A stretch of 64,000 nt of DNA. Origin: Liolophura sinensis. Lineage: Eukaryota > Mollusca > Polyplacophora > Chitonida > Chitonidae. A model generated the notes under the pieces. That model saw only the letters and a program-made list of their open reading frames with translations. It was not told where the DNA came from and made no database searches. Numbering within the stretch: position 1 is the first letter of the stretch; the number at the start of each line of letters is the position of its first letter. Positions 8,940-21,334 of this stretch are shown piece after piece. The translations under genes were made by a program, and so were the position numbers. The stretch spans positions 33,720,810 to 33,784,809 of the forward strand of contig NC_088304.1 of the NCBI RefSeq assembly GCF_032854445.1, written 5' to 3'.

Positions 8940-9119
8940 ATACAGCCAGCATGTGGTTGTCAACTTAACCACGTGGGTTTTGTTTTGGAACTCTTCTGTG
9001 TTCTGCGGTAAATTATGGTCGATAAAACGTACAGCATATGACGAAAATATCCACTAAAATGTTCAGTATTTTTACGTTATCCCTTGTTTTAAAGCACAGT
9101 TAAAGCCGTTTTCGTGACA
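8940..9119 (+). promoter_or_regulatory. Probable FBXW8 proximal promoter and 5' UTR with a CACGTG E-box
   Basis: This is the unique sequence directly before the FBXW8 start. A palindromic E-box, CACGTG, lies at 8970-8975, about 150 bp from the ATG; such sites bind bHLH factors of the MYC/USF type. There is no clear TATA box. The transcription start is not determined. Confidence 0.35.
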
Positions 9120-10909
9120 ATGGCTAGTGGAGATGAGTTGGAAAATTTTCGAAAGCAATGGGAAAGAGAATTGAAACATTCACGTCGGAGAAATTATGCG
9201 ATTTCCCAAAAGTCGAATTCGGATAACAAACCTGACATTGCCAGAGAAGATGAGCTTCGAGTTAAGGACGAATTAATTCGAAATCATCATCGTATTCCAA
9301 TAGAAATTCTTGAAAACAATGATTCCAACTCAACTGAGAATTACCACCCTTTCGTGATCGTTGACAATTTGCTCAAGAGTGGGCATCATCCTTCGTCAAC
9401 AGAGAAGACAAAGGGCAATTGTTATTTCAACCGTGAGAATGACGATGATGGCATGGTTACAACTGGAAACGTTCCTCGCCCGGACACAGATCTTACAAAC
9501 TGCTTATTGTCACCAGAATCAAAACGTAGAAAGCTATCCAACCCATCTCAAATTGCACATGTAAAAGACAAAAGTGGAGAGAAAGTAATAAATAAAAACC
9601 AAAGATTGCTGGATCAGTTAATATCAGATCTTGTGAGTACCGGTACCGAGATGTACAGTATGCTTGTACTTGTCACTGCTGTTGATTCTCAAATGGATTG
9701 CCCTTACATAACGCACATGTTGTTGTAGTTTGAGGTTGCTTTGATGTTCGGTTTGGCAAAATTTTGTTCGGCCAAGGATATGGCCCCCAAACAACTTCAT
9801 ATTCGGCATTTGGGACATTTTATTTAATAATGGTACCTCTCATATTTGTTTTGTTCTTTCAGGATGAAATAACAGAAATTCCTTTCTTTGACATCAACCT
9901 TCCGAGAGAACTTGCACTGAAGATTTTTCATCACCTGGATTTTGCTGATCTGTGCCGTTGTTCTCAGGTATGAAAGAAAATGAACCATCTTTATATACAT
10001 GTATGTCGTCAAATTGATTTGGAATAACTATTTTTAGATTTGAAAAACAAAATAAAAATTAGACAAACAGTTTTTGGATTCCTACATGCTCAGTTTATTT
10101 ACACTTGCTTGTACATTTTGTTTTTTGGAATATTGCTAAAATACATTGCTTGTTTTGCCTAACATCATAGTGAATGTATCAGTCTCATTTTGAATACTGT
10201 AGACCCGGGCTGAGTTGGTGACTAATTACATGCATATGAAAAAATAGATTGTTACATGCTGTGATAATAGTTGATAAGAGGTTGTGTATTTTGTATTTCC
10301 CAGGTGAGTAAAGCATGGAGAAGCTTGGCTGAGGATGAGTTACTGTGGTACCAAGTTTGTCACAGGTTAGGGGAACACAAGCAGATGACAGAGGGTGGAG
10401 ACTGGAAATCACATGCTAGGTACTGTGTGACCAGGAGGAGACAACTGCTAGCAAACTGGAAGGTAACTCTTTATGTAGACAAGAGATTATCATTTTATTT
10501 TTCTCTTTTTGTACCAAAATTTTTGTGTATTTATTTGCTTTTTGGTGTTTTATGCCGTACCCAAGAATATTTCACTTATGCAACAATAGGAAGTAGTAAG
10601 GTGGGAGGAAACTAGGCAGATCCTGAGGGAAAGCTACAACCATCTGCAGGTTGCTACCAGACCTTCTGAATTAAGCCCAGAGAGGAAGCCAGCATGAGCT
10701 GGACTTGAACTCACAGCGACCACATTGGTATCAGGCTCCTGGGTCATTGTGCTGCGCTGGCACACTAACCACGCTAATTTTAGATTTTTGTATGACCTGA
10801 CATGCCTGAAGTACATGTTCTTTGTTCTGACACATGCCTGATGTCTGAGTGTAACAGTTTAGGTGTCATACATGGTGTCCTCAGCATGTTATTCCAATGA
10901 GGCAGCCGT

Positions 10910-10950
<41 letters not shown>

Positions 10951-13900
10951 GTTGCCATGCAATACTATCTGATATGACCAAAATAATGTTAAATCTGAAA
11001 TTGAACTCCCTAAAAGGAACAAAAAGAAAAAAACCAAGACACATTTAAAGACCAGTCACATCCATAAAAATAATGAAATATGTGGTAGGATTTAATTAAA
11101 CTGCCTGATGTCTTTGGAAACTCAGATGTGTTGACTCCATGCTTTATTTGTTACAGAGCCGAGTGGGCAGTTTACAACAATTCCAGTACATAAAAGGTGG
11201 TGTTCTCTGTCATGTCAGCTCCAGCGAAGGAAGACTTGTGGCTGGGTGAGATCTCTACAAAACCTATAGACTCATGCTGTTTGCGATATGAAGTATACTT
11301 TCAGGTGTACAGAATTCATAATCATTTAATGTATTTATTTGTTTATTTGATGGGAGTTTTACACCACTCTGGCAGCCAGCATTATGGTGGGAGGAAACAC
11401 CCTACCTTCTGCAGGTTGCTAGCAGACATATTCTGTTAAACTTCAGACAGTCACTTGTGGCATATTTATATTGATTACCATATATTAAGGATTATTAATT
11501 CAGTACTGATATTTATGGATTAAAGGATTAAAGGCAGTTCATCCTGCTTGTTTCTCTGCTAGATACATGGATATATAAATAAATAAATGAATAGGAAATA
11601 ATTAAACTAATTCCGTAAATAGAATAAAGGAAGTAAATTGGAAAATAAACTAAATAAATGAATATGCAACAAATATAGACAACTAGGAAATAAGGTGTAT
11701 AAACTACTGCCTGTAAATGGTCTCATCTTTACAGGTATATACTGTTCATACCTGATGCAGTCATCAGAAAAAGAGAAATTACGTAAAATATGGCAAGAAA
11801 GTTAGGTAGTAATAAGGACGGAAATATATATGTAAAAAAATATGTTAAATATGTATTTATTACCAGGTACACTAATGGACAGGTAAAGATGTGGCAGCTA
11901 AAGTCTGGGGAGGAATGTGTCTTCCAGCCCTCCTCTACTGCCCTGGTGATAGACGAGGCTCAAGAGGAGGGGACACTGGCCAATCTGCTGATCTCCACAG
12001 CTACCTCAGATACACTGACAGCAGCAGGCTACTCACAAGGTATGAAGGTGTATGGTACATGGACAATAACATGTTACCTTGGATAATATTTTCATATTTA
12101 TAAGTTCATAATTTATATTGTCATTTTATAAGTCTTCATGTAGTCTTCATTTTTATACCCCTCCTGAGTAAAGGACATATTATGGTTAGGCGGTGTCCTT
12201 CAGTCTGTCTGTCTGTCACTCCATTCGTCTGTCACTCCGTCTGTTTGTCTGTCTGCCAGTCCGGCTTTCCATCGTATGTACAGGTATTGTAGACGTCTGG
12301 CAGAATGATGGCAGTACCCAGCCTATCCACACCATCCCCTGTACAGAAGGTGTGTCTCACCTCATCTGGTCTTTATGTACAGGTGTTGTAGACGTGTGGC
12401 AGAATGATGGCAGTACCCAGCCTATCCACACCGTCCCCTGTACAGAAGGTGTGTCTCACCTCATCTGGTCTTTATGTACAGGTATTGTAGACGTGTGGCA
12501 GAATGATGGCAGTACCCAGCCTATCCACACCGTCCCCTGTACGGAAGGTGTGTCTCACCACATCTGGTCTTTATGTACAGGTATTGTAGACGTGTGGCAG
12601 AATGATGGCAGTACCCAACCTATCCATACCGTCCCCTGTACTGAAGGTGTGTCTCACCTCATCTGGTCTTTATGTACAGGTATTGTAGACGTGTGGCAAA
12701 ATGATGGCAGCACCCAGCCTATCTACACCATCCCCTGTACAGAGGGCATGTCTCACCTCACCCTGGCTCCTGGCCAGCCTCTTGTCCTCACAGCCCATGG
12801 GCCGTACGTCCGCTTTGACTTAGGGAGGGGGAGGGAAGTCAGCTGCATCAGCTTGACCTATTGGATCTGAGAACAAAGGTGAGGAGGCCTTCTCTCATGA
12901 GACATTTCTTGTTGAGAAGTTCTGGCTTTTAAAGCATTAGATTTCATTTAAATTGGTTAAAAAAAAATACAGAAATAAAAAGATTTTAAAAACAAAGAAA
13001 AAAAAGAAGAAGAGAAAGGTAGTTTTGGGCATAGTTTTCAATGGTTTTTCCACTGATATTTATACTGGTTGTATGAGCATTCTTTCACCTAAATATTCAA
13101 TGCCATATTTAATGCCATACTTCATCAACTTAATTTTTGGGCTTCTTTTTTTTCATATAATTGTGTGTAGTCCATTGTTTTGCTTTTTGTTTCACAGTCA
13201 TGTGTACAATTGTTTCTTCTGATTTTGATCAGAAAAGGTATGACTTATACCTGTACCTGTCGTTAGCTTTTTCTCAAGTAAATTAGAATTTGACATTTCC
13301 AGGTATGATCTTAAGTCTTAAACCTAAATTTCTTTCATTTTTTTCAAGGTGAAACACGTTCGACTTTTAAGGTGCCCAGAGCCATACATTCCTGTATGGT
13401 ACAAGACTGTGGTAGCTACAAACAATGTGGTCTGGGTGCACAGGCCTGGCCATTCACATGACAGCATGACTGAGGTACACAATATAACAGAGGCCCCTAT
13501 AACTGCCATGGATGTCTCCCCTGACACTTACCAGTTGGCTGTAGGGGTCAGCATGCTGGGTGGACCTCAACAGTCTTGTAAGGTGAGTAGCTTTCCAGGA
13601 AGGGAGATAACTAGTCATTTTTTTGACATGATAATCATGATGACATGAGGTCATTTCCAGTCTGATTTCAGTCAATCCATGAAAGTTTCCCATCAGTTGT
13701 GGTGGATACCAATGTCTACACGTATGTATGGTAAATGACCTGAAATTTCATGCCAATAATTGCACATTTAAAGGCAAACAGTTGTCATTAAATATTATAT
13801 TCGGTGTTGAAACTTAAATTTTTCCATTTACATTATCAGTCTATCTTCCCAAGAAACCTCAAAACAACTTTCTAAGACAAACAGAATTCTCTGAATCAAG

Positions 13901-16900
13901 AAAAAGGTGGATTTTAACTTGGGTGAGATTTACTATATTCTGTTGTTTAACTATTAAAGGCATCATGCTGAAGACATCGGATATGACACACAGCTACATT
14001 TGTGGTTTACAGTTATTGTCTTCTAATGTTTAGTGTTTGGGAGAAGCCAAAATCACCATTTTAACTGAGACTAACCATCTGTGTATGTTGTTCATTCTGT
14101 CAGTTATTTTGTCAGTCATTCTGTCAGTGAATCTCTCAGTCAGTCAGTTTCTCAGTCATTCTCTCAGTCATTCTCTCATTCAGTCATTCTCTCAGTGAAT
14201 CTCTCAGTCAGTCAGTTTCTCAGTCATTCTCTCAATCATTCTCTCATTCAGTCATTCTCTCAGTGAACCTCTCTGTCAGTCAGTTTCTCAGTCATTCTCT
14301 CAGTCATTCTCTCATTCAGTCATTCTCTCAGTGAACCTCTCTGTCAGTCAGTTTCTCAGTCATTCTCTCAGTCATTCTCTCATTCAGTCATTCTGTTAGT
14401 GAACCTCTGTCAGTCAGTTTCTCAGTCATTCTCTCTGTATCTCTAAGTGAATGTCAGTCAGTTTGTCAGTCATTCTGTCAGTGAATCTCTCAGTCAGTCA
14501 GTTTCTCAGTCATTCTCTCATTCAGTCAGTTTGTCAATCAAATCTTTTACATTTGTACATCTTTTAACAAGGGCTGTTCATTTAAAGAAGAGCCTGAGTT
14601 CAAGATAACACAAAAAGTTTGACCTCATCACCACATCTGTGTTCATTAATTGTAGGTGAAGCTCTACTGCCTGAAGAGTGGGAGGTTACTGAGTACCCTG
14701 AAAGGTCACACATACTTCATCAGCTGTATCAACCTTCACTCGTCACCAGCCAATCATCTGGTCACGGGGTGTGGAGATAGGAAGTGAGTGTGGATGTGGC
14801 ATGGTGAAATCATGTAGAGTTAACACACATGTAGCTCTAGTCTCTCAAGTCCTTTATGTAGAGTTAACGCACATGTAGCTCTAGTCTCTCAAGTCCTTTA
14901 TGTAGAGTTAACACACATGTAGCTCTAGTCTCTCAAGTCCTTTATGTAGAGTTAACACACATGTAGCTCTAGTCTCTCAAGTCCTTTATGTAGAGTTAAC
15001 ACACATGTAGCTCTAGTCTCTCAAGTCCTTTATGTAGAGTTAACACACAAGTAGCTCTAGTCTCTCAAGTCCTTTATGTAGAGTTAACACACATGTAGCT
15101 CTAGTCTCTCAAGTCCTTTATGTAGAGTTAACACACATGTAGCTCTAGTCTCTCTACATGTCTCTACATGTATGACAAAAAGCAGCATCAGGTGAAGAAA
15201 ATTCTGTATCTAGCCTGCTGTAGAATTCAAGCATTGGAGTGCATTTAATTTGGTAAAAAATAATTCTCAAAATCATCAGGTTTTCTTTGGAATTTTTCAT
15301 CAACTAGTTGTCCTTCTGTATGAACTGTAGTACAGAACTGTGAATAGGTGGTAGACAATCTTGTTTATAGGTGAGCTGTAGTACAGAAGAGTTCTTAGAC
15401 AGTAGACAATCTTGCTTATAAGTGAACTGTAGTACAGAAGAGTGCTTAGGTGGTAGACAATCTTGTTTATAGGTGAACTGTAGTACAGAAGACTGCTTTG
15501 GTGGTAGACAATCTTGTTTGTAGGTGAACTGCAGTACAGAACCGTGCTTAGGTGGTAGACAGTCTTGTTTATAGGTGAACTGCAGTACAGAACCGTGCTT
15601 AGGTGGTAGACAATCTTGTTTTTAGGTGAACTGTAGTACAGAAGAGTGCTTTGGTGGTAGACAATCTTGTTTGTAGGTGAACTGCAGTACAGAGCCGTGC
15701 TTAGGTGGTAGACAGTCTTGTTTATAGGTGAACTGCAGTACAGAACCGTGCTTAGGTGGTAAACAGTCTTGTTTATAGGTGAACTGCAGTACAGAAGACT
15801 TCTTAGGTGGTAGACAATCTTGTTTATAGGTGAACTGTAGTACGGAAGAGTGCTTTGGTGGTAGACAATCTTGTTTGTAGGTGAACTGCAGTACAGAACC
15901 GTGCTTAGGCGGTAGACAATCTTGATTATAGGTGAACTGTAGTACAGAAGAGTGCTTTGGTGGTAGACAGTCTTGTTTGTAGGTGAACTGCAGTACAGAA
16001 CCGTGCTTAGGCGGTAGACAATCTTGTTTGTAGGTGAACTGCAGTACAGAACCATGCTTAGGTGGTAGACAATCTTGTTTATAGGTGAACTGCAGTACAG
16101 AAGAGTGCTTTGGTGGTAGACAGTCTTGTTTGTAGGTGAACTGCAGTACAGAACTGTGCTTAAATGGTAAACAGTCTTGTTTATAGGTGAACTGTAAGTA
16201 CAGAAGAGTGCTTAGGTGGTAGACAGTCTTGTTTATAGGTGAACTGCAGTACAGAAGAGTGCTTAGGTGGTAGACAGTCTTGTTTATAGGTGAACTGCAG
16301 TACAGAAGACTGCTTAGGTGGTAGACAATCTTGTTTATAGGTGAACTGTAGTACAGAAGCCTGCTTAGGTGGTAGACAATCTTGTTTGTAGGTGAACTGT
16401 AGTACGGAAGAGTGCTTTGGTGGTAGACAATCTTGTTTGTAGGTGAACTGCAGTACAGAACCGTGCTTAGGCGATAGACAATCTTGTTTATAGGTGAACT
16501 GCAGTACAGAACCGTGCTTAGGTGGTAGACAATCTTGTTTATAGGTGAACTGCAGTACAGAAGAGTGCTTAGGTGGTAGACAGTCTTGTTTATAGGTGAA
16601 CTGCAGTACAGAACCATGCTTAGGTGGTAAACAGTCTTGTTTATAGGTGAACTGCAGTACAGAAGACTGCTTAGGTGGTAGACAGTCTTGTTTATAGGTG
16701 AACTGCAGTACAGAACCGTGCTTAGGTGATAGACAATCTTGTTTATAGGTGAACTGCAGTACAGAACCATGCTTAGGCGGTAGGCAATCTTGTTTATAGG
16801 TGAACTGCAGTACAGAACCGTGCTTAGGTGATAGACAATCTTGTTTATAGGTGAACTGCAGTACAGAAGAGTGCTTAGGTGGTAGACAATCTTGTTTATA

Positions 16901-19900
16901 GGTGAACTGCAGTACAGAACCATGCTTAGGTGGTAGAAAATTTTGTTTATAGGTGAGCTGTAGTACAGAGGAGTGCTTAGGTGGTAGACAGTCTTATTTA
17001 TAAGTGAACTGTAGTACAGAACCTTGATTATGCGGTAGAAAATCTTGTTTATTTGATTGGAGTTTTACATCATAGGTGAACTGTAGTACAGAGCTGTGAT
17101 TATGCAGTAGAAAATCTTGTTCATAGGTGTCCTGTAGTAGGGAACCGTGCTTAGGTGGTAGAAAATCTTGTTTGTAGGTGAATTACAGTAGAGAATTGTG
17201 ATTAGGTGGTAGACAATCTTGTTTAAAGGTGAACTGTGGCGGTTGGTCAAATTTTGTGAGCAAAATTGTCACACTAGAGGTATCTGAAGCATGGAGCCAA
17301 TGGGATTTAAAGAAATAAAATCACTAGATGTTGTAAACAAACAATTTTTTTCAAGGCTCATAGGCCAAGTTTTATGAAGTTTGGTATTCTCTACGCGTTT
17401 ATCTGCCCTTGATGTCCCCCTAGTGTATGACGTCACAGTGGAGTGATGCCGTTTTGTGCAGTTATGAACTGTGTTAATTGCACACCGAATTATGCTGGGA
17501 TTAGTTTTCATGCCTTCCCATCGGACCCCATCGGTATGCACGATAATGGATAATCGCCAAGTGATGAGACCATTTTGTGCAGAATAAGCACTCTAAATTA
17601 TGCTACCAGCATTTTGAGAAGGCATGTTTTGACCCAGCTTACAGGCTAAAACTGGGGTTTGTAATTTGATTCCAAAGTGGAATGGAAAGTAAAAAAAATC
17701 TGACAATGTTTGAAACCGGAAGCAGTACCTACTATTTTCAACATTCCTGGTCACAGAGTTTTCTGGACAAAAAACATGGATCAAATCCAATGTAGCCCAT
17801 ATTGTATCTTTAAACCACAGCACCACTATTAAGTCACACATACTTGACACACTAGTGACATTTAAGGGCAGAGAAGAGATGTGAGTTTGTTGTTAGACTT
17901 TTTGGTGTTAATTATATTTTCAATTTCTTTTTTGAAAATTTATTTTCAAAGTAAAACAACTCACCAGATTTAGAAGTAAAATGAGAAGTAAAATTGGGAC
18001 ATTTCACCTTTAAGTTCACTTAGTACTTTAGGATGAAAAATTCCATTAAGTTACAGGTGACTTTAAATACCATGTTTGACCTTCAAATACCAGTTTTCTG
18101 CTGACACATGACATACAATATTCTTCTTGTTTGAACAAAATGGCCTAAGATATACAAAGTATCTCAATTTGTATCTTTATGTAGAGTTCGTGTGTATGAC
18201 CTGCGGTGCACGTCCCCGGCCATGACCCTGGCTGCACACACCCACGTGGTCTCTCAGGTACAGATGGATGACTGGAAGGTGGTGTCAGGGGGAGAGGATG
18301 GACTTACCTGTGTGTGGGACCAGAGGATGGCCCTTAAACTCTGGGACTGGCACAACAGGTGAGTGCACAATTTACATGTGCCTCTGTAAAAGTATCTGCT
18401 GTGGTAGTTTTCTCACAATGCATTTGTAGATTGTAAGCTGGACTTCCTGACCATGAGGTACATGAAGTGTGGGTTCAATCCCAGCCTCTGACAGGAATTT
18501 GTTGCAGTCTTCGGTCAACAGCACTTTGAAGGACATTGTCACAGTCCTACAATCTTTGAAAAAAGTTTGTAGGTAACTTAACAAAGATTGGTGGTTTACA
18601 CTGACTACTGACGATGACCTTGACCCATGAAAATGATCAACATTGTGAAGTGGAAAATCCTTAGTGTTAACATACATGTAGTTCATAAAAGTCAGTAAAA
18701 ATTTGCAAGTTTCATTGCATTATAACATTGTGAAGTCTTTTTCTTCGTAATACATTAATTGCCATGAAAAGTTAGATCAGATGAATTGGAACAGCTCCTT
18801 AACCGCTCCTTAACTTTTTCCGTCCATACAACTGTATCAGTGGAACATTTTGAATATGGCAATGAACCTCAATCAAATAATTACGTGTAACTACCCTAAA
18901 TGACCTAAAATTTTGCCCATGACTAACTTGCTCAATTTACCTTATTCTGAGAATTCTAATGATTCTAGAAAAAAGCTTTAAGGCTGGTTTGGAAGGTGTT
19001 ATGATATCTTAGTGGAAAAATGTATATGTATGTTTCGGCACCAAAAATGTTATTTTATGGCATTTGTTTGCCTAGGAAAGAGCACATTTGTGGGCGAAGC
19101 TTGGTGTCATTTAGGATAAATATGACCAAACAGGTTGTACTTTGATCACTGAGGACATTTTATATCCTGTGTGCTTTGTTTGTTTTATTTCTTGACAGGC
19201 ATCCAGTCAGGTACAGTCAGTTTGAAGACAGTCAGCTGGTTGTAGCTAACATACCAGTAGAAAAGTTCCCACAGACTGACCAGTTTGAAACTTCACTACA
19301 CAAGAGGTAAGCTCATCTGAGAGGTAATTGCTCTATGATTTGTTCATTAGTATGACTCCCTAGCCATTTTGTATGTAAAATGCCATGTTTTAACTGTTAT
19401 CTCTGCAATTTAATGAACTTTTTATATATAATTATTCATTTGTTGACTTAGTGTGCATTTTTTTTTTTGTTTTTTTTTTTTTTGTATAATTATTTATATT
19501 CTTTTTGTAAAAGAGTATAATTTATCCCCAATCTAGGCAGAGTACTGCTCTCAACTGAAATATATGTAGAATGTATAGGCTTGTTTTGATTAGAGACAAC
19601 ATCATCAACTGGATTTGCAAAATCACAATATCAGTGGAATAAAACATTAATTATGCTACATGTACATCACATTTTCCATCATATAAAGTAATATAGATGA
19701 ACATCGCCCTCAAATGTCAGGAAACGTTAAAGAATGACATTTGTACAATGAAAATCACCCTCAAATGTCAGGAAACGTTAAAGAATGACATTTGTACAAT
19801 GAAAATCACCCTCAAATGTCAGGAAACATTAAAGAATGACATTTGTACTATGAAAATCCCCCTCAAATGTCAGGAAACGTTAAAGAATGACATTTGTACT

Positions 19901-20432
19901 ATGAAAATCCCCCTCAAATGTCAGGAAACTTTAAAGAATGACATTTGTACAATGAAAATCCCCCTCAAATGTCAGGAAATGTTAAAGCATGACGTTTGTA
20001 CAATGAAAATCACCCTCAAATGTCAGGAAACGTTAAAGCATGACATTTGTACAATGAAAATCACCCTCAAATGTCAATGAAAATCTGTTAACCACATTTG
20101 TTGGAAATTTTATCATCTTATGCTGGCAAATGCTGATGATTTACTCATGGTTACTTCAGTGTCCTCGACCCAAGAGAATGACAGCCTTGGTATAAGTGAA
20201 ATATTTTCATGTATGTAATCCCTGGTATAGCCTTATCTTCCAAAAGCAGTTTTTAGTATAAATGTTTCTACATATCTGTAATATTTCCAGGTATCGGGGA
20301 TCAATCCAGCTGTATGACTTCCTGAGTGATCAGAGTACACAGGGTGTTCCAGAGAACTGTCTGTCCAACTACGACATCGCTGAGGGCTACGATTACAACA
20401 TACGACTGACAGTACCCTATGACATTGTGTGA
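9120..20432 (+). CDS. FBXW8: F-box/WD40 repeat protein 8, substrate receptor of a CUL7-type ubiquitin ligase (11 coding exons)
   Basis: Coding exons: 9120-9632, 9863-9967, 10304-10462, 11157-11245, 11867-12039, 12284-12878, 13349-13582, 14656-14783, 18185-18358, 19199-19306 and 20291-20432 (TGA). All junctions are GT-AG and keep phase. In mammals this protein binds SKP1 through its F-box and serves the CUL7-RBX1 ligase. Visible parts: a variable N-terminus opening MASGDELENFRKQWERELKH, like the vertebrate start; an F-box in exons 2-3 (INLPRELALKIFHHLDFADL, then CRCSQVSKAWRSLAEDELLW); and WD40 blades from exon 4 on (AGYTNGQVKMWQ, VRVYDLRC, VQMDDWKVVSGGEDGL, CVWDQR). The C-terminus ends in LTVPYDIV. 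The model gives about 806 residues with every exon-6 repeat, or about 674 with one copy; the human protein is about 600. The start is ATG at 9120; a GTG six bases upstream is in frame but unlikely. Exon 6 carries a 99-bp duplication and an apparent one-base deletion. Identity is strong; repeat inclusion is uncertain. Confidence 0.93.
10540..10778 (-). mobile_element. Family-1 SINE in FBXW8 intron 3
   Basis: Nearly complete inverted copy: tail (GGTGTTTTATGCCGTACC), GGTGGGAGGAAACTAGGCAG, CCATCTGCAGGTTGCT, GAGGAAGCCAGCATGAGCTG, then box-B complement GGACTTGAACTCACAG. It ends near a box-A remnant. Confidence 0.85.
10917..10946. repeat. TA dinucleotide microsatellite in FBXW8 intron 3
   Basis: About 15 TA units follow a TACATG stretch. 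Confidence 0.85.
11326..11440 (-). mobile_element. Truncated family-1 SINE in FBXW8 intron 4
   Basis: TTTATTTGATGGGAGTTTTA, then GGCAGCCAGCATTATGGTGG, GAGGAAAC and TTCTGCAGGTTGCTAGCAGA. The tRNA-like end is absent. Confidence 0.7.
12277..12771 (+). repeat. 99-bp tandem repeat, five copies, spanning the FBXW8 intron 5/exon 6 boundary
   Basis: Period is exactly 99 bp, with few substitutions between copies, mostly silent or conservative (IP/VP, H/Y). The unit holds the last seven intron bases plus about 85 coding bases, so each copy brings its own candidate 3' splice site. Since 99 is a multiple of three, every choice keeps the frame. The copies look young because they are nearly identical. Confidence 0.95.
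12284..12878 (+). CDS. FBXW8: FBXW8 exon 6, with five tandem in-frame copies of a 33-residue WD40 segment and an apparent frameshift
   Basis: A 99-bp unit begins at 12277, 12376, 12475, 12574 and 12673. Each unit starts with the intron-end motif TGTACAG and continues into codons for GIVDVWQNDGSTQPIHT, ending near EGVSH. The last copy runs on into unique sequence (LTLAPGQPLVLTAHGPYVRF). A single copy would give a 200-nt exon, about the size expected from vertebrate FBXW8; five copies give 595 nt. After RFD the reading frame hits TGA at 12868-12870. The frame shifted by one base is open to a strong donor (AAAG, then gtgagg, at 12878/12879) and fits the phase of exon 7. One base therefore seems to be missing from the G-rich stretch around 12820-12836. 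That could be an assembly error or a real indel. Confidence 0.85.
14078..14545 (+). repeat. CAGTCATTCTCT-type tandem repeat in FBXW8 intron 7
   Basis: Twelve-base words CAGTCATTCTCT and CAGTCAGTTTCT alternate, with a longer repeating block of about 60-65 bp. Pyrimidine-rich on the coding strand. Non-coding. Confidence 0.9.
14813..15157 (+). repeat. 44-bp tandem repeat, about 8 copies, in FBXW8 intron 8
   Basis: The unit is TGTAGAGTTAACACACATGT followed by AGCTCTAGTCTCTCAAGTCC and TTTA. Copies are almost identical. It starts about 30 bp after exon 8. Confidence 0.95.
15310..17240 (-). repeat. 51-bp minisatellite, about 38 copies, in FBXW8 intron 8
   Basis: The unit contains CTTAGGTGGTAGACAATCTT, GTTTATAGGTGAACTGCAGT and ACAGAACCGTG (51 bp), with point variants that recur in patterns. 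Since 51 is a multiple of three, long minus-strand frames of 17-residue repeats appear (such as 16923-15622). Two frames are open over the same DNA and both lack other protein features, so I read it as non-coding. The right end is more diverged and is interrupted by a SINE tail fragment at about 17049-17078. Confidence 0.95.
18411..18680 (+). mobile_element. SINE-like element, family 2, in FBXW8 intron 9
   Basis: It carries TGGGTTCAATCCCAGC (box-B-like), followed by CTCTGACAGGAATTTGT as in the copy at 6578. The 3' half is diverged. Confidence 0.45.
19699..20085 (+). repeat. 51-bp tandem repeat, about 7.5 copies, in FBXW8 intron 10
   Basis: The unit is ATGAAAATCACCCTCAAATG followed by TCAGGAAACGTTAAAGAATG and ACATTTGTACA. 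Again a multiple of three, so a 17-residue repeat frame is open. It is unrelated in sequence to the 51-bp array in intron 8. Lies about 200 bp before the last exon. Confidence 0.95.
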
Positions 20433-21334
20433 GAAGGGAAAAACAGTCCTGTGTGATGATGGAAAGTTTCACTGTCTGGATCTCAGTCACTGGACAGAAT
20501 ACATGTGCTCAGTTTAAATGAGCTACCCATAACCAGGTGCAGGTTCCACAAAGCCAATTCTAACTTAAATCAAAACTGAAAATAGGGTTTCAGGGCTTAT
20601 TTTTGGCTCAGAAATGGCTGTGCAGAATTAACAGCCTCTAGACTTCAAGCTGCCGCCAACTTGGCAAAATCTGGATTTGATCATGCAATATTATTGGTCA
20701 GAGACAGATTGGCAGTGAAGAGAAAAAAAGGCGTGAACTGATTAAAAAAACGAGCATCACATCTTACAAGGGAAGAAACCATCAATCAGCCTCACGAAAA
20801 TCTGTCGTAAATGACAATCTGTACAGTAAATTAAAATTTAGTGATAAGAAAACAAACTTGTCTTCTGAAAATCTGCTTAATACAAATGCAGATATTCCCA
20901 GGTTAAAGTGGTGTAGGTAAACGAAGCATAGATAAAAATGCGTTTTCACCTGTGAGATGTGATGAAACTAAAGAGAGCCAGAATTTGATCAAGACCAGGG
21001 GCTGACTCTGTACTTCCATTGTCATTGGAAGCCCGTTGAAAGAGGTGAGCATACAGCTACACTTAAGTTGTTATGTTCGTCCAATATGGCGAAAACAAAG
21101 GTAAATATAACTTAAAATTTCAAAAATGGCGCCACGGCGATTCTGATATTTCTGATATAAATACCACGTAAGTGGAAACGTTCAGTCCAGAATGACCGAA
21201 AATGTTTACCTCTCCAGCAGTTTCAACTTTACGGTCACACAGTATTTTCTAGATGTAAGCATGTTGTGTTATACATTTGTTATGCAAAACTTAGACCTAT
21301 CTTGTAGTACAATGGGCGTTGAAATGCCTGCCTT

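Follow-up and report, generated by a model that had tools for sequence, protein, structure and literature searches.

Human IFI6 (6-16, G1P3) reportedly contains a minisatellite with a short unit and multiple splice donor sites (Nucleic Acids Res 1995, 23:1854, cited in PMC2572611). The array that we describe here, in the FBXW8 gene of a chiton, resembles it in offering, through a minisatellite, several alternative splice sites at the edge of an exon, but the sites in the chiton are acceptors and the unit is 99 bp long.

Splicing of tandem repeats has been documented in other genes. Human introns that measure a multiple of a surrounding repeat are reported in 8.4-fold excess, and UBC yields a ladder of isoforms (Duan et al. 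2024, PMC10809524, available sections). In potato RdRp a tandem duplication copied the branch site, the tract, the 3' splice site and part of the next exon, as the chiton unit contains an acceptor together with an exon start, and a cryptic exonic donor was activated, which gave a well-supported new intron (Ma et al. 2016, PMC4974935, available sections). The same sections refer to two further cases. The fission yeast genes SPOG_01682/SOCG_00815 (Zhu and Niu 2013, via PMC4974935) resemble the chiton array in having several tandem AGGT copies, with introns spanning copies, but their unit is short (24 bp) and purely exonic, and the introns are backed by expressed sequence tags. The Rogers AGGT model, with ATP2A1 (Hellsten et al. 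2011, via PMC4974935), shares the joining of AG and GT at the unit border by tandem duplication; its starting segment, in contrast, is purely exonic. Prawn lectins (PMC7536079) were considered as a parallel and set aside: the available sections of that paper place the repeats in exon 2, while the splice variants described there concern exons 3, 5 and 6. Our literature search, with subscription papers mostly outside its scope, found no FBXW8 paper on molluscs and no in-frame tandem repeat with a splice acceptor in each unit.

Results

The window, that is the whole stretch of DNA analysed (64,000 nucleotides of Liolophura sinensis contig NC_088304.1), contains an orthologue of FBXW8, whose exon model was built by hand (Table 1). 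Human FBXW8 (7z8b_F) was the best PDB match for both halves of the protein (E = 2.8e-38 for the F-box half and E = 6.4e-34 for the C-terminal half), which bears out the gene identity given in the preliminary description of this DNA. With exon 8 included, the C-terminal part matched 7z8b_F with E = 1.1e-44, and the F-box was found by Pfam (PF12937, E = 6.6e-18). The protein shows the layout of an FBXW8 orthologue, an F-box followed by a WD40 region with human FBXW8 as the best match; an intact full-length reading frame is not present in the assembled allele. The end of exon 6 and the beginning of exon 7 correspond to human residues about 320-384, a part that lay outside the best stretches of all three FBXW8 alignments. 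Whole-assembly protein searches, in which a missing match does not equal absence, placed FBXW8 at this single locus (9 of 9 and 4 of 4 matches).

Table 1. Positions of the gene, the repeat copies and the frame break in the window. The first base of each copy is a possible start of exon 6.
Feature	Position	Strand	Remarks
FBXW8 orthologue, 11 coding exons	9120-20432	+	open frames, GT-AG borders, phases; human FBXW8 homology
FBXW8 exons 1-5	9120-9632, 9863-9967, 10304-10462, 11157-11245, 11867-12039	+	hand-built
Intron 5 (first array acceptor used)	12040-12283	+	244 nt; 640 nt with last acceptor
TCTG-rich tract in intron 5	about 12205-12264	+	
Minisatellite, 99-bp unit, across intron 5/exon 6 border	12275-12760	+	Tandem Repeats Finder
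Copy 1	12284-12382	+	acceptor TGTACAG 12277-12283; donor-like AAG|GTGTGT after 12349
Copy 2	12383-12481	+	acceptor 12376-12382; donor-like site after 12448
Copy 3	12482-12580	+	acceptor 12475-12481; donor-like site after 12547
Copy 4	12581-12679	+	acceptor 12574-12580; donor-like site after 12646
Copy 5 and remaining exon 6 (199 nt)	12680-12878	+	acceptor 12673-12679; strong donor AAAG|GTGAGG after 12878
G-rich run GGGAGGGGGAGGG	12823-12835	+	likely site of frame loss, judged from flanking open frames
TGA stop	12868-12870	+	reached by all counted splice paths in the assembled allele
FBXW8 exons 7-11	13349-13582, 14656-14783, 18185-18358, 19199-19306, 20291-20432	+	hand-built

Tandem Repeats Finder identified 4.9 copies with a period of 99, 94% matches and 0% indels (score 867). 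The copies lie head to tail and the unit exceeds 9 bp, as in other minisatellites. All five are in a single open frame (ORF 12190-12870). Together with the acceptor positions, these results confirm what had been reported before, namely five tandem in-frame copies, each with its own acceptor. Each copy begins right after the acceptor, at TGTACAG|GT. Bases 1-81 of the unit are common to copy 5, which is the true exon start, and bases 91-99 (TATGTACAG) are identical to the end of intron 5, with bases 82-90 in between. The unit does span the intron/exon border. It had also been stated that the acceptor was copied together with about 85 coding bases; the joint copying of acceptor and exon start stands, and the make-up is corrected to 81 nt shared with the exon, 9 further nt and 9 intronic nt. 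A homology of the unit tail to intron 5 beyond TATGTACAG was rejected, since 1836 of 5000 shuffles reached its score; because of this, only 9 nt of the tail are safely intronic.

The copies were described as nearly identical, and we observed pairwise differences at 3 to 5 of 99 positions among copies 1-4, hence they are probably young. Over the first 81 positions, 7 to 10 mismatches separate copy 5 from each of them, after which copy 5 continues as ordinary exon. Position 51 is A in the edge copies 1 and 5 and G in copies 2-4, the pattern that would be expected if the inner copies were the youngest. A DNA search with the unit through the whole assembly (609,464,459 bases in 632 contigs) gave five matches, all five in the array, with the reservation that a missing match in such a search is not absence. 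It is plausible that the copy number differs between individuals.

The unit of copy 4 translates as GIVDVWQNDGSTQPIHTVPCTEGVSHLIWSLCT. Aligned to human FBXW8, one unit comprises WD40 strands c and d and the first part of strand a, and strand b is missing. An extra copy is therefore not a WD40 blade. AlphaFold2 prediction, from a single sequence, of all five copies read through without a break (195 aa) gave a mean pLDDT of 54.7 and a pTM of 0.57, too poor to judge folding. Nine Pfam matches to the array protein were discarded, as none reached the curated cut-offs and they look like chance matches.

We scored the acceptors with two matrices. The general matrix consists of general animal values and is not derived from the chiton; the own-gene matrix was made from the nine other FBXW8 acceptors and, with nine sites, is rough. 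With the general matrix, the acceptors of copies 2-5 scored 5.33 and that of copy 1 scored 3.56. The nine other acceptors ranged from -0.02 to 9.4 (2.02 for exon 11, start 20291), and both array values exceeded five of the nine. A score of 5.33 was reached by 1.6% of the 832 AGs in 9000-20600, array copies and real acceptors counted. With the own-gene matrix, copies 2-5 scored 7.64 and copy 1 scored -0.97, compared with 0.01 to 7.34 for the real acceptors left out singly, and none of the 797 other AGs in 9000-20600 reached 7.64. A branch-point-like CTCAC, with its A at -24, precedes acceptors 2-5; no yTnAy was found within 60 nt of the copy 1 acceptor. The TCTG-rich tract does precede the first acceptor alone, as previously noted, but the view that only this acceptor is properly equipped is contradicted by the higher scores of copies 2-5 in both matrices and by their CTCAC. 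An extra in-frame AG (CTGCCAG, exon start 12260) lies 24 nt upstream of copy 1 and scored above it (0.69, own-gene matrix); it may be one more possible in-frame acceptor, outside the 16 splice paths counted below.

We propose, with moderate confidence, that a young and roughly neutral minisatellite copied a working acceptor, that acceptor use is mixed, and that the array is tolerated as splicing can drop the surplus. Ordinary slippage or unequal exchange would first have produced a tandem duplication of the stretch running from the final bases of intron 5 to roughly base 81 of exon 6, and would later have raised the number of copies to five. The unit includes the acceptor and measures 99 bp, so that every copy comes with a full 3' splice site, all in one phase; most likely more than one of the five would be used by the spliceosome. 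This explanation is supported by the presence of five acceptors in one phase, by their good scores, by the CTCAC at -24 and by the lack of a stop before YVRFD in the splice paths counted below. The single-copy product would be the form expected to fold and function, because an extra copy adds strands c, d and a without strand b. As the surplus can be removed by splicing without a change of frame, we infer that the array is tolerated and roughly neutral, on the model of a proposal made for repeat arrays with dual-specific splice sites. Its age and direction are suggested by the similarity of the copies in this single species. The weak AG|GT donor at the copy borders, chance matrix matches (up to 6.4 on the minus strand) and an excess of synonymous changes, all presented below, count against this explanation.

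It is unlikely, in our opinion, that the last acceptor is nearly always used and that copies 1-4 are effectively intron. Exon definition favours the shorter exon, and the last acceptor gives the shortest exon 6 (199 nt vs 298 to 595 nt). It is also the only simple choice that yields an FBXW8 of ordinary layout. The ordinary length of FBXW8 had been used to argue for the last acceptor, which is an argument about the protein alone. Acceptors 2 to 5, however, are identical over the 20 nt compared, so nothing local favours the last one, and five of the eight changes in copies 1-4 are synonymous (P for 5 or more = 0.018, 0.027 and 0.040 at assumed ts/tv of 0.5, 1 and 2; one small test, picked after the data were seen). 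This excess is a weak hint that copies 1-4 may be translated and constrained rather than hidden. The last 18 bases of the unit carry no change among copies 1-4.

The same synonymous changes are in accordance with inclusion of the whole array, in which the first acceptor would win and the protein would contain four extra 33-residue segments. The frame is open through all five copies, with no stop and no indel, intron 5 would be short, and acceptor 1 is better than five of the nine other FBXW8 acceptors by the general matrix. On the other hand, both matrices rank acceptor 1 last among the five, it has no yTnAy nearby, and the extra segments would come without WD40 strand b. The openness of the frame is weak evidence, as by our own estimate it would arise by chance about 1 in 4 times. 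This value follows from a period divisible by 3 (1 in 3) and six stop-free new codons (about 0.75), the exon part of the unit being in frame by descent; in our list of arrays, compiled by hand, the period is divisible by 3 in 8 of 14. Openness also means little in this gene, as is seen from the intronic 51-bp array at 15321-17052 (34 copies), whose minus strand is open over 480 aa. We consider inclusion of all copies improbable.

An open frame is also present in the array at 19697-20076 (127 codons, plus strand). Both this frame and that of the 15321-17052 array are likely meaningless and serve as useful controls.

It had been expected that any of the acceptors would keep the frame, with proteins differing in 33-residue steps. 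This holds through the array and fails past a frame break in exon 6, which had been overlooked. Counted from the last acceptor, exon 6 has 199 nt, while phase 1 at its start and phase 0 at its end need 200. The WD40 frame ends at the TGA, and the next frame is open from about 12823-12835 into exon 7. Because of this stop, no choice of acceptor gives a full-length product from the assembled allele. A homology search across the break gave no extension into it (best stretch 109-326), therefore its position was taken from phases and open frames alone. An earlier in-phase exon 6 donor that would avoid the stop was rejected: the best of five GTs, at 12690 and 12837, scored 0.32 and -0.48, compared with 7.71 for the real donor. 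The GT at 12690 lies close behind the acceptor. The break is either an assembly error, with a base lost in the G run, or a segregating null allele, and is a matter separate from the array.

A stop followed by several downstream junctions would be expected to lead to mRNA decay. The missing nucleotide and the stop are what would be seen if the assembled allele were null, or the gene decaying, and the array tolerated in a dead copy, a reading compatible with the others. The remaining ten exons, however, are open, with GT-AG borders and matching phases, and the gene has one locus and clear human homology outside its middle part. Moreover, the 14-fold HiFi coverage reported in the available sections of the genome paper on Liolophura japonica (heterozygosity 1.24%, PMC11068029) leaves room for an error of one base in a G run. 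Loss of function as the background of the array is hardly probable.

Copies 1-4 contain a donor-like AAG|GTGTGT, which had also escaped notice, in the same phase as the array acceptors. Copy 5 carries GAGGGCATG at this position and has no donor there. The site scored 5.44 with the general matrix, above 6 of 10 real FBXW8 donors; with the own-gene matrix it scored 6.99, and 8 of the 10 real donors, left out singly, were lower. Either it is there by chance in the exon copy or it was gained later. At the borders between copies, AG|GT was a poor donor: CAG|GTATTG scored 0.46 and CAG|GTGTTG (copy 2) 0.98 with the general matrix, compared with 2.9 to 9.1 for the 10 real donors, and the values were 0.12 and 1.24 with the own-gene matrix (0.17 to 8.06 for real donors left out singly). 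With introns shorter than 66 nt barred and the border AG|GT not taken as donor, 16 in-frame splice paths are formally possible, none with a stop before YVRFD. They give nine lengths, with 0, 22, 33, 44, 55, 66, 88, 99 or 132 extra residues.

We inspected both strands of the 14 hand-listed arrays, and a strong acceptor together with a strong donor in most copies was found on one strand alone, that of the FBXW8 border array. A strong acceptor in most copies is predicted by descent from a splice border. On the minus strand of this array most copies hold a donor-like site scoring up to 6.4, most likely by chance.

The AAG|GTGTGT of copies 1-4, joined to acceptors at least two copies further on, would produce symmetric mini-exons of 66 nt. 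The strength of this donor and its phase would suit such cassettes, as would introns of 132, 231 or 330 nt and the lack of the donor-like site in the true exon copy. A matrix match, however, does not equal use: 1.2% of the 921 GTs in 9000-20600 score as high, and the site on the other strand scores higher than 5.44. We regard cassette use as very unlikely. Still more doubtful is a regulated or stochastic splice dial, in which five acceptors and four internal donors would give a ladder from 0 to 132 extra residues, copies 1-4 would be translated and constrained, and a VNTR with a copy number that differs between individuals would tune a ubiquitin-ligase substrate receptor.

Arrays (period of 10 or more, 3 or more copies, TRF score of 100 or more) occupy 14.3% of the window and 31% of the gene (9120 to 20436); in 12 sampled 10-kb pieces they account for 8.0%. 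Seven of the 12 pieces have no arrays, and one piece, at 58.5%, makes up most of the sampled sum. Since the FBXW8 gene is crowded with arrays, an array touching a splice site needs no special cause, and selection should usually remove it.

One sampled piece consists mostly of a single 51-bp array of about 115 copies (12000005-12005858 of contig C6). Periods of 51 bp recur in FBXW8 introns and in another sampled piece (L006). A 44-bp array lies just past exon 8 (14812-15154, 7.8 copies) and contains at seven places CTTTATGTAGAGTT, which is identical to part of the exon 9 acceptor region. The copies of CTTTATGTAGAGTT make a row of decoy acceptors, perhaps by chance; the match has 14 nt, little more than the 10 to 13 nt of nine other acceptors, and was treated as chance.

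Although tandem repeats are a classic assembly hazard, a true copy number lower or higher than five is extremely improbable, because copies 1-4 carry eight distinguishing changes and HiFi reads with a mean of 8,347 bp (PMC11068029, available sections) would span the 486-bp array.

In the same assembly the mitochondrial genome (contig C99) appears as a head-to-tail multimer, in which seven COX1 matches recur at intervals of about 15.5 kb; the circular molecule was probably misassembled. Its gene order is nad3-nad2-cox1-cox2-atp6 on one strand, with gene names assigned from translations, and this order agrees with that of a chiton.

Discussion

The FBXW8 array is a natural experiment on the choice that the spliceosome makes between identical acceptors spaced at 99 nt. 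It also puts to the test a proposal about repeat expansions with splice sites of their own, namely that these evade selection since splicing can remove them. RNA reads of Liolophura japonica from digestive gland, foot, gill, gonad and heart (SAMN35319765-SAMN35319769) and HiFi reads (SRX20411988) have been deposited, according to the genome paper (PMC11068029). Further, it is a warning that gene models for such exons are arbitrary.

The array resembles human UBC and VCX3A as they are described in the available sections of PMC10809524: a tandem array, an AGGT in each unit, a unit length divisible by 3 and possible removal of units in frame. AGGT does stand at every unit border of the chiton array, as in arrays of the UBC type. 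The UBC array, however, lies within coding sequence, and transcripts demonstrate that its AGGTs serve as donor or acceptor (PMC10809524, available sections), whereas the chiton unit straddles an existing intron/exon border and its strong signal is the copied acceptor. At the border AGGT the acceptor score (5.33, general matrix) is good and the donor score is under all 10 real FBXW8 donors. Membership of the FBXW8 array in the dual-specific splice-site class is not established, because the AGGT is a weak donor and the array is known from DNA alone. Potato RdRp, in the available sections of PMC4974935, differs in having one extra copy, while the chiton gene has five, read from genomic DNA only. 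In summary, these comparisons suggest that the FBXW8 array would work like UBC and VCX3A and would have arisen like potato RdRp, and so would combine both in a splice border amplified five-fold.
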